A stretch of 40,875 bases of DNA from a virus: IMG/VR virus record IMGVR_UViG_3300042146_000073, positions 1 through 40,875 of that record. The stretch is one strand, 5' to 3'. Positions 15,726 to 30,319 of the stretch are shown one piece after another. The translations under genes were made by a program, and so were the position numbers. Every line of letters begins with the position of its first letter. Positions within the stretch are counted from its first letter, which is position 1. The notes below the pieces were generated by a model, which saw only the letters and a program-made list of their open reading frames with translations, searched no databases and was not told the origin of the DNA.

Positions 15726-15742
15726 AAACAGTTTAGATGTTC
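15726..15742. promoter_or_regulatory. Degenerate repressor operator-like site before repA
   Basis: AAACAG-TTTAG-ATGTTC matches the AAACAG-N5-CTGTTT sites at 26515 and 30834, with two mismatches in the right half. A -10-like TATTCT lies 18 bases downstream (15761-15766), so a bound protein would cover the -35 area of the likely repA promoter. Confidence 0.45.
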
Positions 15743-15821
15743 AAGGCGGGGCGCCTTTGCTATTCTTTTGGCGTCCGGCGTTAGCTGCGAGACAAGAATT
15801 TCAGGATTTTACAAGGGCTTA

Positions 15822-15902
15822 GAAAAAAGAAAACCCCCAGAGGCCGGCAAGCCTTGGGGGTTCTCGGTGATCGTTCCAAACAGCTCTGGAAGACCTCGAC
15901 AA
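15822..15902 (-). ncRNA. Predicted antisense copy-control RNA of repA
   Basis: On the minus strand, TTGCTT (plus coordinates 15932-15937) and TAAACT (15909-15914) are separated by 17 bases and form a promoter. A transcript from about 15902 would run through hairpin I (15832-15862) and end in TTTTCTTTTTT, a complete intrinsic terminator. The product of about 80 nt would be fully complementary to the repA leader. This is the layout of CopA/Inc RNAs of IncFII and IncB/IncI plasmids. It is predicted only from sequence, and no homolog is named. Confidence 0.7.
15832..15862 (+). promoter_or_regulatory. repA leader hairpin I (antisense target; hides leader-peptide ribosome site)
   Basis: AACCCCCA pairs with TGGGGGTT and AGGC with GCCT around the loop CGGCAA, leaving one bulged G at 15840. 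The right arm (GGGGG 15856-15860) is the only plausible ribosome site for the GTG at 15867, so folding would block leader translation. Confidence 0.75.
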
Positions 15903-15950
15903 GGTCAGAGTTTAGTGGACGGTCCCCTTCGAAGCAAGCCCATTGCTTAG
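15867..15950 (+). CDS. RepA leader peptide
   Basis: A 27-codon frame starts with GTG six bases after the GGGGG in hairpin I and ends with TAG at 15948-15950, inside the repA ribosome site (AGGGGA 15949-15954). The same frame is open further upstream to TTG 15768. Ribosomes stopping here would open hairpin II and let repA be translated. This matches the role of Tap/RepY leader peptides in IncFII/IncB plasmids. The peptide sequence itself looks unimportant, and its identity is inferred from layout. Confidence 0.65.
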   Translation: MIVPNSSGRPRQGQSLVDGPLRSKPIA

Positions 15951-15954
15951 GGGA
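15923..15954 (+). promoter_or_regulatory. repA leader hairpin II (sequesters repA ribosome site)
   Basis: TCCCCT (15923-15928) pairs with AGGGGA (15949-15954), and AAGCAA (15932-15937) with TTGCTT (15943-15948), with a 3-base bulge and a 5-base loop. AGGGGA is the repA Shine-Dalgarno sequence, six bases before ATG 15961. Confidence 0.78.
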
Positions 15955-15960
15955 AGCAGC

Positions 15961-16986
15961 ATGTCCGCCATGATGGCCGAGGACGGCCCGCAGCCATTGC
16001 GCTGGGGCCTCAAGATGTACAAGCACCCGGGGTTATTCCTGGGCACCGGCAATCGCTGTGGGCACGACCCATTGGCGCTGGCCGTTGATCGCCTCAGCCT
16101 GCACACGCCCAGCGGTGGGAAATGGCCGAAATTGATTCAGGCCGGCATTGATCGCATTCAGGCGTATTTCAGCAACGCCGGCTCGCTGGAGCCCCTGGCG
16201 CACCTATCCAAGAAACGCAACAAAGACGGCTCGATGCGCCAAAACCGCAGCGAAGCCCGCGAGTCGCATGCCCTGGTGCTGTCGGTAATCTTTACTTGCC
16301 TCGACCTGAAGTCGTTGCGGGTTGGCTACTACACCAACACCGGTGCATTCGTCAGCATTTCCTTTCTCGACATCGCCCGCCGTTGCGACATGACCTGCCA
16401 AGTGAAGGCGCGCGACGACGCTGGCCAGGTGATCGACGGCCAATTCAAAGAGGTGCCGACCTCGCGATTCTGGCGCGCGGTGCGCGACCTCAAGAAGGCC
16501 GGCGCCATTTCCGTGTTTGAGCAGTACGAAGAAAAAGACGCCGGCAAGCGTGCCCTGACCGCGATCAAGGCCTTTAGCGAAAAATTCCTACGGCTGATTG
16601 CCGGCTGGACCGCCAAGCGCGTAGAGAAAGCCCGTAAGCGGGCGCATCAGCGGGTCGGCAGCTTCCTGCTCGGCGCGATTGACGCGGGTGTCGAGAACGT
16701 CAACCAGCGTAAAAATCTGGTCAAAGAGATCCAATCGGCTAACACGAATCGCGAGTTGTTCGGCGCGGCCCCGGCCAAGAATCGCCAGCCGGCCACCGGT
16801 GGCGCGCGCCAGTCCGTCGAGGCGGCGCTACAGCAGGAGTACGCCGAGCATGAGGCCAAAGTATTGGCCAGCATCACGGCTGCCCTGGGGCGTCCGCCGC
16901 GCGGGCTGGAGCAGCTGAAAATGCAGACCCAGCACGGCTGGATCAGCCGCGACGACTTTATGCGTCGACGACTCGGTGTCAGCTAG
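15961..16986 (+). CDS. repA: Plasmid replication initiator, RepA (IncFII-like organisation)
   Basis: This 341-residue basic protein lies just downstream of a leader with antisense-control structure. Residues about 125-200 look like a winged-helix domain (ISFLDIARRCDM, then SRFWRAVRDLKKAGAISVF), followed by a long Lys/Arg-rich helix (FLRLIAGWTAKRVEKARKRAHQR) as in IncFII-type RepA proteins. It would bind an origin nearby, probably in the gene-free region downstream. The start at ATG 15961 is set by AGGGGA; an upstream ATG at 15943 is inside hairpin II. The family call rests mainly on layout and fold pattern, and the primary sequence is far from R1/R100 RepA. Confidence 0.75.
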   Translation: MSAMMAEDGPQPLRWGLKMYKHPGLFLGTGNRCGHDPLALAVDRLSLHTPSGGKWPKLIQAGIDRIQAYFSNAGSLEPLAHLSKKRNKDGSMRQNRSEARESHALVLSVIFTCLDLKSLRVGYYTNTGAFVSISFLDIARRCDMTCQVKARDDAGQVIDGQFKEVPTSRFWRAVRDLKKAGAISVFEQYEEKDAGKRALTAIKAFSEKFLRLIAGWTAKRVEKARKRAHQRVGSFLLGAIDAGVENVNQRKNLVKEIQSANTNRELFGAAPAKNRQPATGGARQSVEAALQQEYAEHEAKVLASITAALGRPPRGLEQLKMQTQHGWISRDDFMRRRLGVS

Positions 16987-17025
16987 CCCGCCACTCTCTC
17001 CCGGCTTCCCATTTAACCTCCCCTG

Positions 17026-17067
17026 ACCGCCAGGGCGCCCCGCTATGGGCGCGCTCAGGCGGTTTTG
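17026..17067 (+). terminator. Nested hairpin terminator after repA
   Basis: The outer stem ACCGCC/GGCGGT encloses a second stem GCGCCC/GGGCGC, followed by TTTTG. Confidence 0.65.
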
Positions 17068-17843
17068 TGCTTGCCCCTCCCCCATTCCCCAGCGTTGCGC
17101 GCAAAAACGGCCCAAACAGCCCGTGCTGCGCCCAAATCGCCATCCTCCCCGAGCGTTACCCCCTCCTTTTGCCGGCGCGAGCGCCGCGCCTCAGAATTTA
17201 ACTCACACCCTCCAAATATTAAGTCCCCCTAGAGTTGGTTTAAGTCAGTGTTGGTCTTTCCCGCTATACAACTAGAGAAGCCTGGCCAGGCTACGCCTGT
17301 CCTAGTAATGCCTCGGCTATGCCGAGAACGGTTTAGGGGGCTGGTGCTACGCCCCAGCCACACCGGGGCTACTCGCCCCTACCCAGGCATGAGCCTGCGG
17401 CCCCTGCACCCGCATCACAACGTCGCGCTGTAACGACTGCCGCCGTTCCGTCAGTAAGGCGCCTTCCAGTCGCTGTGGCCCGCGCTAACGACAATTACAC
17501 CCGGTAGATCGAGTGGCGGCCCTTCGCTCCTTCACGCGCCGCCTACGGCTGGCCAGTCGCGCAAGCGCTCCGGCTAACAGTGAGGGGGGTGGGGTCACGC
17601 CCAGGGGCGGCCCGCTGGCCACGTCGGTGCCTGACCGATCGCTGGGGCGATTTTCAGGATGGCCAGACCCTGGGTGATGTTCGGTGTGCTGACGATCGCC
17701 CTGGACGGTTGCCGGCGATCTGGCGAGGGTGGGCGATCACGTCGGCGCCTGGCCGATCGCGCGGAAGTCTCCGGGCAGCCAGACCCTGGGCATGTCCGGC
17801 GGCGTGATGTTCACGCCCATGGGCGCCGGCGCTCGATGATGGA
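17068..17843. other. Gene-free origin-like region
   Basis: No convincing gene is present. Open frames here lack ribosome sites and have protein compositions (Pro/Arg/His-rich) typical of chance. The stretch holds a cluster of short hairpins (17287-17396) and a two-copy imperfect repeat of about 117 bp (17621-17850). Lying between repA and parA, it is the best candidate for the plasmid replication origin. Confidence 0.55.
17287..17396. repeat. Array of five short hairpins
   Basis: In order: CAGGC-TAC-GCCTG (17287-17299), CTCGGC-TAT-GCCGAG (17312-17326), GGGGC...GCCCC with an inner CTGG/CCAG alternative (17337-17357), GGGGC-TACTC-GCCCC (17365-17379) and AGGC-ATGA-GCCT (17385-17396). The first, second and fourth have loops starting TAC or TAT. 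The spacing and shared loops indicate a structured DNA or RNA element. Confidence 0.65.
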
Positions 17844-17850
17844 CAAGGAT
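17621..17850. repeat. Two-copy imperfect tandem repeat, about 117 bp period
   Basis: ACGTCGG(T/C)GCCTG(A/G)CCGATCGC occurs at 17621 and 17739, and GCCAGACCCTGGG at 17662 and 17778. The matching order gives a period of 116-118 bp. The copies have diverged and contain small indels, so the duplication is old. Confidence 0.7.
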
Positions 17851-17909
17851 ACTTTTAGGATTGACATAAGGTATTTAATGGATATCCTTTTGGTATCTGT
17901 TAGGTATCT
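17845..17909. promoter_or_regulatory. Partition operator/centromere array 1 with parA promoter
   Basis: Copies of a GGTATC/GGATATCC motif start at 17870, 17880, 17892 and 17903, one helical turn apart, with a further ATAC half site near 17850. A promoter TTGACA (17861-17866) and TATCCT (17883-17888), with 16 bases between them, is overlapped by the repeats, implying autoregulation by the RHH partner. Confidence 0.75.
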
Positions 17910-17923
17910 CTTGAGGGGATTGC

Positions 17924-18580
17924 ATGTCCATTATATTGATTGGTAACACCAAGGGCGGGATCGGCAAATCGACCAACGCGGTGCAGGTCGCGGTGGGGCG
18001 AGCCATCCAGGGTAAGGACGTGCTGCTGGTCAATGCCGACCGGCAATCGTCGTCGTCCAAGGCCATTGGCCGGCGCGACGAGGCCGGTCTTACGCCAAGC
18101 GTGACCCTGGTGGCGTACCCGGATGGGGACCAACTGCGCACCCAAGTGCTGCGCCAGGCGAGCAAATACGACGACATCATCATCGACGCCGGTGGCCGTG
18201 ATAGTTCGGCGTTACGTCACGCGATGATGATCGCCGACGTCATGCTGGTGCCCATTGCTCCGGGTAACTTCGAACTGGACGCGCTGGAGGATGAGCTGGT
18301 GCCGCTGATCAATGAGATTCAAGCATCGCGCGGCGATAACCCGTTGCCGATCTATGCCTACCTCAACATGGCCGAGGCCAATAAATTCTCCAGCGATAAC
18401 CTGGACACCCGAAGGTCGATCGAGAGCTTTCCGGAGTTGCAGTTGTTGGACTTCAATATCGTCAAGCGCAAGGCCATTGCGGCCGCCTCGACCACCGGGC
18501 TATCGGTTCGGGAAATGAAGAACAAGGACTTCAAGGCGGTCAAAGAAATTGACGCGCTGATGGCGGCGCTGTTTAATTAA
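17924..18580 (+). CDS. parA: Partition ATPase, type Ib ParA
   Basis: This 218-residue protein has the deviant Walker A box KGGIGKST (residues 10-17), the A' box VLLVNADRQ (Asp39) and the Walker B-like DDIIIDAGG (about 82-90). The short length and absence of an N-terminal HTH identify the type Ib group, which works with small ribbon-helix-helix partners. It would move plasmid copies apart on the nucleoid. GAGGGG at 17913-17918 supports ATG 17924. It heads a two-gene operon with the RHH gene. Confidence 0.92.
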   Translation: MSIILIGNTKGGIGKSTNAVQVAVGRAIQGKDVLLVNADRQSSSSKAIGRRDEAGLTPSVTLVAYPDGDQLRTQVLRQASKYDDIIIDAGGRDSSALRHAMMIADVMLVPIAPGNFELDALEDELVPLINEIQASRGDNPLPIYAYLNMAEANKFSSDNLDTRRSIESFPELQLLDFNIVKRKAIAAASTTGLSVREMKNKDFKAVKEIDALMAALFN

Positions 18581-28934: not shown

Positions 28935-29053
28935 CCCTATAGCGAATTAGCCCATTAGCGAACCCGGCGCCTTGCGCGCCAGGGCGTCGCTTTGCCTGAA
29001 GAAAGACAACGCCGCCCGCCGGCTTGGCCGTGGGTGGCTGTGAGGCCTGCACC
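28935..29053. other. Intergenic stretch before the integrase
   Basis: A short direct repeat (AGCGAA, 28940 and 28958) and G/C-rich sequence. It could hold an attachment or resolution site for the recombinase, but no clear core with flanking arms is seen. Confidence 0.35.
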
Positions 29054-30319
29054 ATGACCACCCTGAGCGTTACCCTGTCCGATGCCGTGATTAAGCGGCA
29101 TGCCAGCGACCCGAGCATTACCGAACTCAACGACCCCCGGCACCCGCTGCGCTTTCGTTACCGTAACGACCGGAGCAAGGGCAGTTGGCACGTTGTCCGG
29201 CATAACAAGGGCGACATCTGGAGAAAGGCCGCGAACTGGCCCGACGTGCCGGCCCGGGTGATGCTCGACAGCCTGCCGGCGGTGCAGGCGCGTTTGCTGG
29301 CTGATCCAGCTGCACCGACCACCGTGGATGGCTGGGAGCGAGTCGGCCAGGTGCTGGAGTGGTACGCCGAACGCCTGAAGACCGATAGAAGCCTGTCCAA
29401 GAGCCGGCGCGGGTCGACGCTGTCGGCGATCCGCTGCCAGTTGCTGCCGGCCCTGGGGGATCTGCACCTTAATAAGCTGAATGCCGACACCATCGACGGC
29501 CACCTGATCCGGCACATGCAAGCCGAGTACAGCCTGGCTTACATCCGGTCGATGCTGGACGTTTTGAAAGTGGTGTTCGGTACGGCTCTGGTGCTGAAGA
29601 AAGTCACCGTCAACCCGTTGCTTGGGGTGTCGTTCAAGCACTTCACCAAAGCCAAGATCAAACCCAAAGGTGCGCGCTTGCGGCACGTCGCCGTGGTCGA
29701 CCTGCTGGCTGACTGGACCGAGGCCTTTGCCCGCGATCCGGCCGCCGTGGCGTTGCTGGTGGTGATGCTGACCCATGCGACGAGGATCAGCGAGACGCGC
29801 CTGGCCAAGTGGAAAAACATTCATCTGGAGGCGGGGGAGTGGTTCATTCCGGCCGCTGACACCAAATCCCACCGCGACCACCTGTTGCCGCTGACCCCGC
29901 AAGCCGTGGCCTTTTTGCAGCGCTACCGCGACAACCAAAAAGCCCGGGGCTATGTCGGGGCCTACCTGTTCCCCTCGACCACGCATGCCGGCCGCCCGAT
30001 GTCGCGTAGCCAGGCCTTTGCCGTGTTCACCCGCTACGGGGCCGGCGACTGGACCAGTCATGACCTGCGCAAGCTCGCGCCTTCTATATGGGCCAACCTC
30101 GGCGTCGATTCGTTGGTGGGCAAGCTGCTGCTGAACCATGCCCTGTCCGAATTAGAGCGCACCTACTTCCAAGCCCTGGGCGAGTCGGTCAAGCGCAACG
30201 CCCTGGAACGCTGGCACGCCTGGCTGGATGCCCAGGGGTTTGACGCGTTGCAGGACAAGACAGGAGCAAGACGGGCGGAAAAGCCGAAAGCCCTGGACCC
30301 CTCGGGCTGGCTGGCCTAG
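29054..30319 (+). CDS. int: Tyrosine recombinase (integrase/resolvase)
   Basis: This 421-residue protein has an N-terminal DNA-binding half, a core-binding domain (about 105-215) and a catalytic domain. The active-site set is present: Arg244 (ATRISE), Lys271 (TKSHRD), His336-Arg339 (HDLR), His362 (NHAL) and Tyr371 (TYF). Integrases of P2/P4-like phages share this order. In a phage with RepA and ParA it could integrate the genome or resolve dimers. The palindrome CGTTACCGTAACG (29156) lies in its coding region. GAGG at 29042-29045 sets ATG 29054. Confidence 0.92.
   Translation: MTTLSVTLSDAVIKRHASDPSITELNDPRHPLRFRYRNDRSKGSWHVVRHNKGDIWRKAANWPDVPARVMLDSLPAVQARLLADPAAPTTVDGWERVGQVLEWYAERLKTDRSLSKSRRGSTLSAIRCQLLPALGDLHLNKLNADTIDGHLIRHMQAEYSLAYIRSMLDVLKVVFGTALVLKKVTVNPLLGVSFKHFTKAKIKPKGARLRHVAVVDLLADWTEAFARDPAAVALLVVMLTHATRISETRLAKWKNIHLEAGEWFIPAADTKSHRDHLLPLTPQAVAFLQRYRDNQKARGYVGAYLFPSTTHAGRPMSRSQAFAVFTRYGAGDWTSHDLRKLAPSIWANLGVDSLVGKLLLNHALSELERTYFQALGESVKRNALERWHAWLDAQGFDALQDKTGARRAEKPKALDPSGWLA

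Follow-up and report, generated by a model that had tools for sequence, protein, structure and literature searches.

A candidate antisense RNA-gated copy-number control region upstream of a pRA2-type repA gene in a phage-plasmid of Pseudomonas-like bacteria

The replication control module REx-C is an exchangeable antisense module of Pseudomonas plasmids, and the RepA family of plasmid pRA2 is among the Rep families found behind it (Bardaji et al. 2017, PMC5304414). Incompatibility maps to this control module, and in a published RepJ replicon the deletion of the leader gene repI had no effect; the module was found in Pseudomonas only, phages were not mentioned, and the 2017 study did not settle how it acts (PMC5304414). 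Phage-plasmids must hold a low copy number as prophages and escape when induced. Antisense copy control in these elements is hardly described: our literature searches found no case, and the RNA-based origins of mycobacterial prophages (PMC7157519) differ from the antisense system considered here.

We analyzed the 40,875-bp virus record IMGVR_UViG_3300042146_000073, which at its full length is called the window; feature coordinates are given in Table 1, and related loci carry numbers with the prefix L. The contig ends (1-580 and 40296-40875) overlap by 580 bp at 94.3% identity, indicating that the record is in essence a single complete genome, circular or permuted, whose assembly combined two close variants, mixed at its ends. 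The genes for terminase, portal, protease-capsid fusion, tail sheath, tape measure, baseplate and tail proteins confirm the complete myovirus structural set that had been predicted, and a holin, a Nu1-type small terminase, a tyrosine integrase and an S24-type repressor are also encoded. Two closed circular plasmids, pPL-38ph of Pseudomonas lundensis and pHN2, are close relatives with the same gene set, and more distant relatives include the closed circular Delftia plasmid pHQS1 and phage PARCL1pr. The complete virion genes, the plasmid replication and partition genes, and the closed circular relatives together indicate that this genome is a phage-plasmid of Pseudomonas-like bacteria. The integrase gene (29024-30319) coexists with the ParA gene, and pPL-38ph and pHN2 likewise have an annotated integrase, with dimer resolution or integration as possible roles. 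Plasmid pHN2 (NZ_CP085886.1; loci L003 and L098; 81,985 bp) repeats a unit of about 41 kb head to tail, with identical protein accessions in both halves, and is either a true dimer or an assembly artefact.

Table 1. Features of the repA control region and its surroundings in the window.
Feature	Coordinates	Strand	Remarks
Element X, CAAGGGCUU	15812-15820	+	directly 5' of hairpin I; beyond the antisense RNA 3' end; predicted to pair with Y
Predicted antisense RNA, ~80 nt	15822-15903	-	conserved promoter; two predicted stem-loops with 3' terminator
Hairpin I	15832-15862	+	predicted antisense terminator on the minus strand and recognition stem-loop on the mRNA
GTG leader ORF, earlier proposal	15867-15950	+	ends inside AGGGGA; judged non-functional as a leader
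Antisense promoter -10, TAAACT	15909-15914	-	AGTNTA invariant in 29 aligned leaders
Short ORF, VDGPLRSKPIA (stop)	15915-15950	+	GTG start, AAGG at 15901-15904; possible alternative leader
Hairpin II	15923-15954	+	holds the repA ribosome site AGGGGA (15949-15954)
Antisense promoter -35, TTGCTT	15932-15937	-	GCAAG invariant in 29 aligned leaders
Element Y, AAGCCC-A-UUG	15936-15945	+	5' arm and loop of hairpin II; beyond the antisense RNA 5' end
repA, 341 aa replication initiator, pRA2-RepA family	15961-16986	+	homology to pRA2 RepA; phrog_20951
Non-coding stretch 3' of repA, probable origin region	16987-17923	.	inferred; relatives also have a long gap there
parA-type partition ATPase	17924-18580	+	AAA_31 and ParA_partition matches

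The repA frame is open over its whole length, and by homology its product is a replication initiator related to pRA2 RepA, in agreement with the original prediction of a Rep protein. The two proteins match in blastp at 2e-16 (31% over 182 aa), and an HMM of the window's RepA family scored 152 bits on pRA2 RepA and at most 4 bits on the other proteins tested. Aeromonas plasmid relatives are annotated as plasmid replication protein repA, and a structure model (pLDDT 72) has winged-helix-like secondary structure. RepA had no Pfam or NCBIfam match in searches where control proteins did match; PDB sequence and fold searches returned nothing significant, and a viral fold search gave one strong match, A0A219YAM3, which has no name attached. 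The proposed kinship with the IncFII RepA family was not borne out, as the protein scored 14.1 bits against NF040977 RepA_IncFII_LM (cut-off 70; control R64 RepA, 313 bits), and comparing profiles against six IncFII/I/L/M RepA proteins gave E 0.006 and a probability of 6%, which is no evidence of membership. In the stretch 3' of repA, no DnaA box was found with up to two mismatches allowed and there were no iterons, two-copy repeats being the only repeats. Some relatives have small ORFs of 69-78 aa located 5' of repA (L004 3189-3425, L020 2512-2748, L022 2476-2688, L023 762-971); these had no family match relevant to replication control, and it is possible that they encode transcriptional repressors of rep. 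A CopB-like gene was considered for the window and rejected, with no ORF of that size seen between 15580 and 15830. The Aeromonas myophages Ahp2 and 32 (L025 and L026; linear records) have a RepA homologue without the antisense module, and in Ahp2 the annotation of this homologue is split and partly on the wrong strand.

To place the upstream region in context, we compared 32 repA leaders from related loci, whose Rep proteins range down to 35% identity. Each of the 32 has a minus-strand promoter consisting of a -10 box (TAAACT, TAGACT or TACACT), a spacing of exactly 17 bp and a -35 box starting TTGC; a terminator hairpin with a T-rich tract follows on the same strand. The predicted TTGCTT-N17-TAAACT promoter facing hairpin I is thus recurrent, and the antisense terminator that had been proposed, which in the window consists of the minus strand of hairpin I followed by TTTTCTTTTTT, is likewise conserved in related leaders. 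A sigma-70 scan did not list the promoter, its hexamers being poor consensus matches, so that the support for it comes from conservation. The antisense RNA would start near 15900-15905 and end in the U tract at 15833-15823, and is presumably made. At the level of sequence, these results support the proposal of an antisense-RNA-controlled rep gene on a phage-plasmid. The leaders of Aeromonas plasmids (L021 1600-1990, L024 800-1200) are laid out differently, with a hairpin carrying a UUUGGCG loop about 300 nt 5' of repA and no 17-bp promoter motif.

Hairpins I and II were found where they had been predicted and are conserved across the 32 leaders, and thermodynamic folding supports the suggestion that the repA ribosome site is locked in hairpin II. 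The leader folds more stably than its shuffles on both strands (z -2.58 on the plus and -2.13 on the minus strand). Hairpin I recurs in all clades although its sequence varies; the four pairs of its upper stem are paired in 100% of cases, and three of the four show compensatory changes on both sides. Its loop is CGGCAA in the window and UUGGCG, CGCCAA, CUGCAA or the reverse UUGCCG in relatives, and such variation between groups is expected where the loop sets antisense specificity. For hairpin II, 87-92% of cells were paired, and a hairpin holding the Shine-Dalgarno (SD) sequence is predicted in each clade despite differing sequences. RNAalifold gave no consensus structure on a broad plain sequence alignment (A4), and pairs were therefore counted on a closer leader set with slide and shuffle controls; because the leader sequences are interrelated, the covariation counts do not represent independent events.

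In single-sequence folds, the start of the leader was paired with the 5' arm of hairpin II. This pairing of X with Y and the formation of hairpin II are mutually exclusive, and the predicted antisense RNA spans what lies between the two elements. Across 21 leaders, 94% of X:Y cells were paired, compared to 30-51% for slid versions, and compensatory changes occur at two pairs (A-U to G-C in L070 and L094; G-C to A-U in L005 and L002). Part of the conservation of Y has another cause, since Y overlaps the antisense -35 box. The mean computed SD accessibility in these leaders was 0.65 when free, 0.12 with the antisense target blocked and 0.25 with X shuffled, and the corresponding values for the window were 0.81, 0.01 and 0.14; composition-shuffled leaders had an accessibility difference of -0.06, none reaching 0.5 or more. 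The computed switch was clear for L002 as well as for the clades of the window and of PARCL1pr, and less so for L048/L049 and L069; the mid clade (L010-L015), the Halomonas clade (L055-L060, L022) and L061 did not show it. Within the core set it was weak in L005, L019, L076 and L096. A cognate/non-cognate test gave mixed results, in that X from other clades often paired as well as the cognate X. The modelling suggests that an X:Y switch is likely to operate in the window, while as a general rule it is unproven.

The region is probably the copy-number control region of a phage-plasmid replicon, in which an antisense RNA breaks the X:Y pairing and thereby lets hairpin II close. This reading draws on sequence and comparison, namely the antisense promoter and terminator, hairpins I and II, the X:Y complementarity with some covariation, the homology of RepA and the plasmid relatives. 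An antisense RNA of about 80 nt, complementary to the repA mRNA leader, would be transcribed from the minus strand at a concentration that tracks copy number. In the free mRNA, X would pair with Y and keep it off the ribosome-site arm of hairpin II, so that AGGGG would be exposed and RepA translated. Binding of the antisense RNA to the leader would create a long duplex between X and Y and force them apart, whereupon the freed Y would complete hairpin II, shutting off the ribosome site and halting the production of RepA. RepA would consequently be made only when the antisense RNA is scarce, and a leader peptide would not be needed. We infer that this switch operates in the cell and that the antisense RNA sets the copy number. 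More tentatively, the locus could be one of a widespread, leader-peptide-free class of antisense-gated translational switches, in which the 5' arm of an SD-sequestering hairpin is paired with an upstream element, the antisense RNA spans exactly the distance between the two, and its binding separates both; the module would have been exchanged among phage-plasmids and plasmids of several genera with differing Rep families.

Control by leader-peptide coupling, as in IncFII (tap) or IncB/I (repB/repY) plasmids, would have the antisense RNA block a leader ORF whose ribosomes would otherwise open hairpin II, and we consider it unlikely here. The original prediction assigned this role to the longer GTG ORF, which is indeed present in the window; of 10 close relatives, 4 retain its frame as far as the TAG in hairpin II, whereas in the other six, +1/+2 indels end it early or lead it into repA, and the assignment is not supported. 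The likelier leader under coupling would be the short GTG ORF, whose AAGG would be covered by the 5' end of the antisense RNA. Its start codon and frame are kept in all 10 close relatives, an ATG stands in its place in clade L010-L015, and RepJ-type members such as L070 have a short ORF of their own whose end overlaps rep in the sequence ATGA, suggesting that leader coupling may have arisen in RepJ-type members. However, a start is absent from that position in L002, L004, the PARCL1pr clade, L048, the Halomonas clade, L061 and L069, and the short ORF lies across both hairpin II and the antisense promoter, which accounts for its conservation with no need for a coding role. The frame of the longer ORF being mostly lost, and other clades having no start at the short one, leader coupling is not a feature of the family.

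Long perfect RNA duplexes are general substrates of RNase III, and an antisense RNA that only blocks the leader or triggers RNase III cleavage, with X:Y merely closing the structure and hairpin II constitutive, would accommodate the clades in which the switch is not computed. The large computed change in SD accessibility in the window's clade and the covariation of X:Y argue against this, making it quite improbable. A pseudoknot of the IncI/IncL/M type, in which loop I would pair beside the repA start and activate translation while the antisense RNA competes for loop I, is brought to mind by UUGGCG in loop I of several relatives, the motif of the ColIb-P9 target loop (Asano 1998, as cited in PMC10724649). 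In all 10 clade representatives tested, loop I was nevertheless no more complementary to the downstream region than expected by chance, the PK-repZ and PK-repBA models match R64 and pOXA-48 and not the window's family, and Bardaji et al. argue against a pseudoknot for REx-C (PMC5304414); such a mechanism is very hard to credit for this locus.

Mutually exclusive upstream/middle and middle/downstream pairings, set by antisense binding between them, are characteristic of pT181-type countertranscript-driven attenuation. The window resembles that system in having such pairings decided by antisense binding in between, but its predicted output is ribosome-site sequestration, and no U run follows hairpin II. 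With CopA/CopT-tap-repA of IncFII plasmid R1 it shares a predicted two-stem-loop antisense RNA with a 3' terminator opposite the rep leader and a sequestered rep SD; it differs in a RepA that is unrelated by profile, a leader ORF that is not conserved and the lack of a CopA match in Rfam. Likewise, an antisense RNA against a leader stem-loop, and in some relatives the UUGGCG loop, recall RNAI-repBA/repYZ of the IncI/IncB/IncL/M plasmids R64 and pOXA-48, whereas the window's family has no pseudoknot, no PK-repZ or PK-repBA match and no conserved leader ORF. Neither the window nor any of seven relatives matched the Rfam models CopA, PK-repZ and PK-repBA, whereas the Hafnia IncFII, R64 and pOXA-48 controls did; sub-threshold Rfam matches in the window were incoherent and were discarded. 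The RepA score, the RNA families, the leader ORF and the pseudoknot all speak against IncFII, IncI or IncL/M membership, and the IncFII/IncB-type circuit that had been predicted does not stand. By analogy, the system can be regarded as a replicon under antisense control in the broad CopA/RNAI sense.

On the present comparison, the locus is best filed as a phage-plasmid variant of the REx-C/RepA-RA2 arrangement of Pseudomonas plasmids. The order of elements (A tract, terminator hairpin or SaL 1, central hairpin, third hairpin with the antisense promoter, rep) is the same, and in pRA2 and pA506, the plasmids used for comparison, as in the window, the promoter has the -10, 17 bp, TTGC layout, lies in the third hairpin, and is accompanied by a terminator hairpin between A tracts. 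The Rep family is that of pRA2, swaps between RepA-RA2-type and RepJ-type rep genes occur in both systems, and pRA2 lacks a leader gene, as in the leader-free model proposed for the window. Unlike REx-C as described, the window's module is found on phage-plasmids and has relatives outside Pseudomonas (Delftia, Halomonas, Aeromonas). Nucleotide homology to the published REx-C cores is only suggestive: blastn with the module returned no described REx-C plasmid among its matches, nhmmer gave E 0.14 for pA506 and 0.086 for L028 over the hairpin I part only, and a covariance model found the correct places at E 0.15 in pRA2, 0.16 in pA506 and 0.008 in an IncP-11-like plasmid. Relative to PMC5304414, the occurrence in phages and outside Pseudomonas is new, as is the proposed X:Y/hairpin II switch, which offers a mechanism for REx-C modules. 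Changes in the loops of the module would explain incompatibility, and the module provides a concrete, small and testable control point in phage-plasmids.

A pattern scan for the antisense promoter core was used to search for the module elsewhere. The same module lies 5' of a non-homologous, RepJ-family rep gene in L070, L076 and the closed plasmid pPAC1.3b, and is also present in L094, where rep is cut off by the contig end. This alternative initiator has a homologue in RepJ of pA506 (E 9e-21 and 8e-27), and pPAC1.3b, a Pseudomonas aeruginosa plasmid, combines the module (141.7 bits with the covariance model) with a RepJ-like gene and phage tail genes. In L017 (1810-2811) and L018 (5001-6002), RepA is about 46-47% identical to that of the window, while the leader and the first codons are nearly identical, suggesting recombination near the start codon. 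The placement of the module is best read as the swapping of control and replication modules known from Pseudomonas plasmids, with copy-control modules here exchanged between plasmids and phages. At L099, as at L070, L076 and L094, the antisense module precedes a RepJ-family rep. In L076, the short ORF that precedes rep resembles a decayed RepA N-terminus (MTDATPTLGRPSVMRG...).
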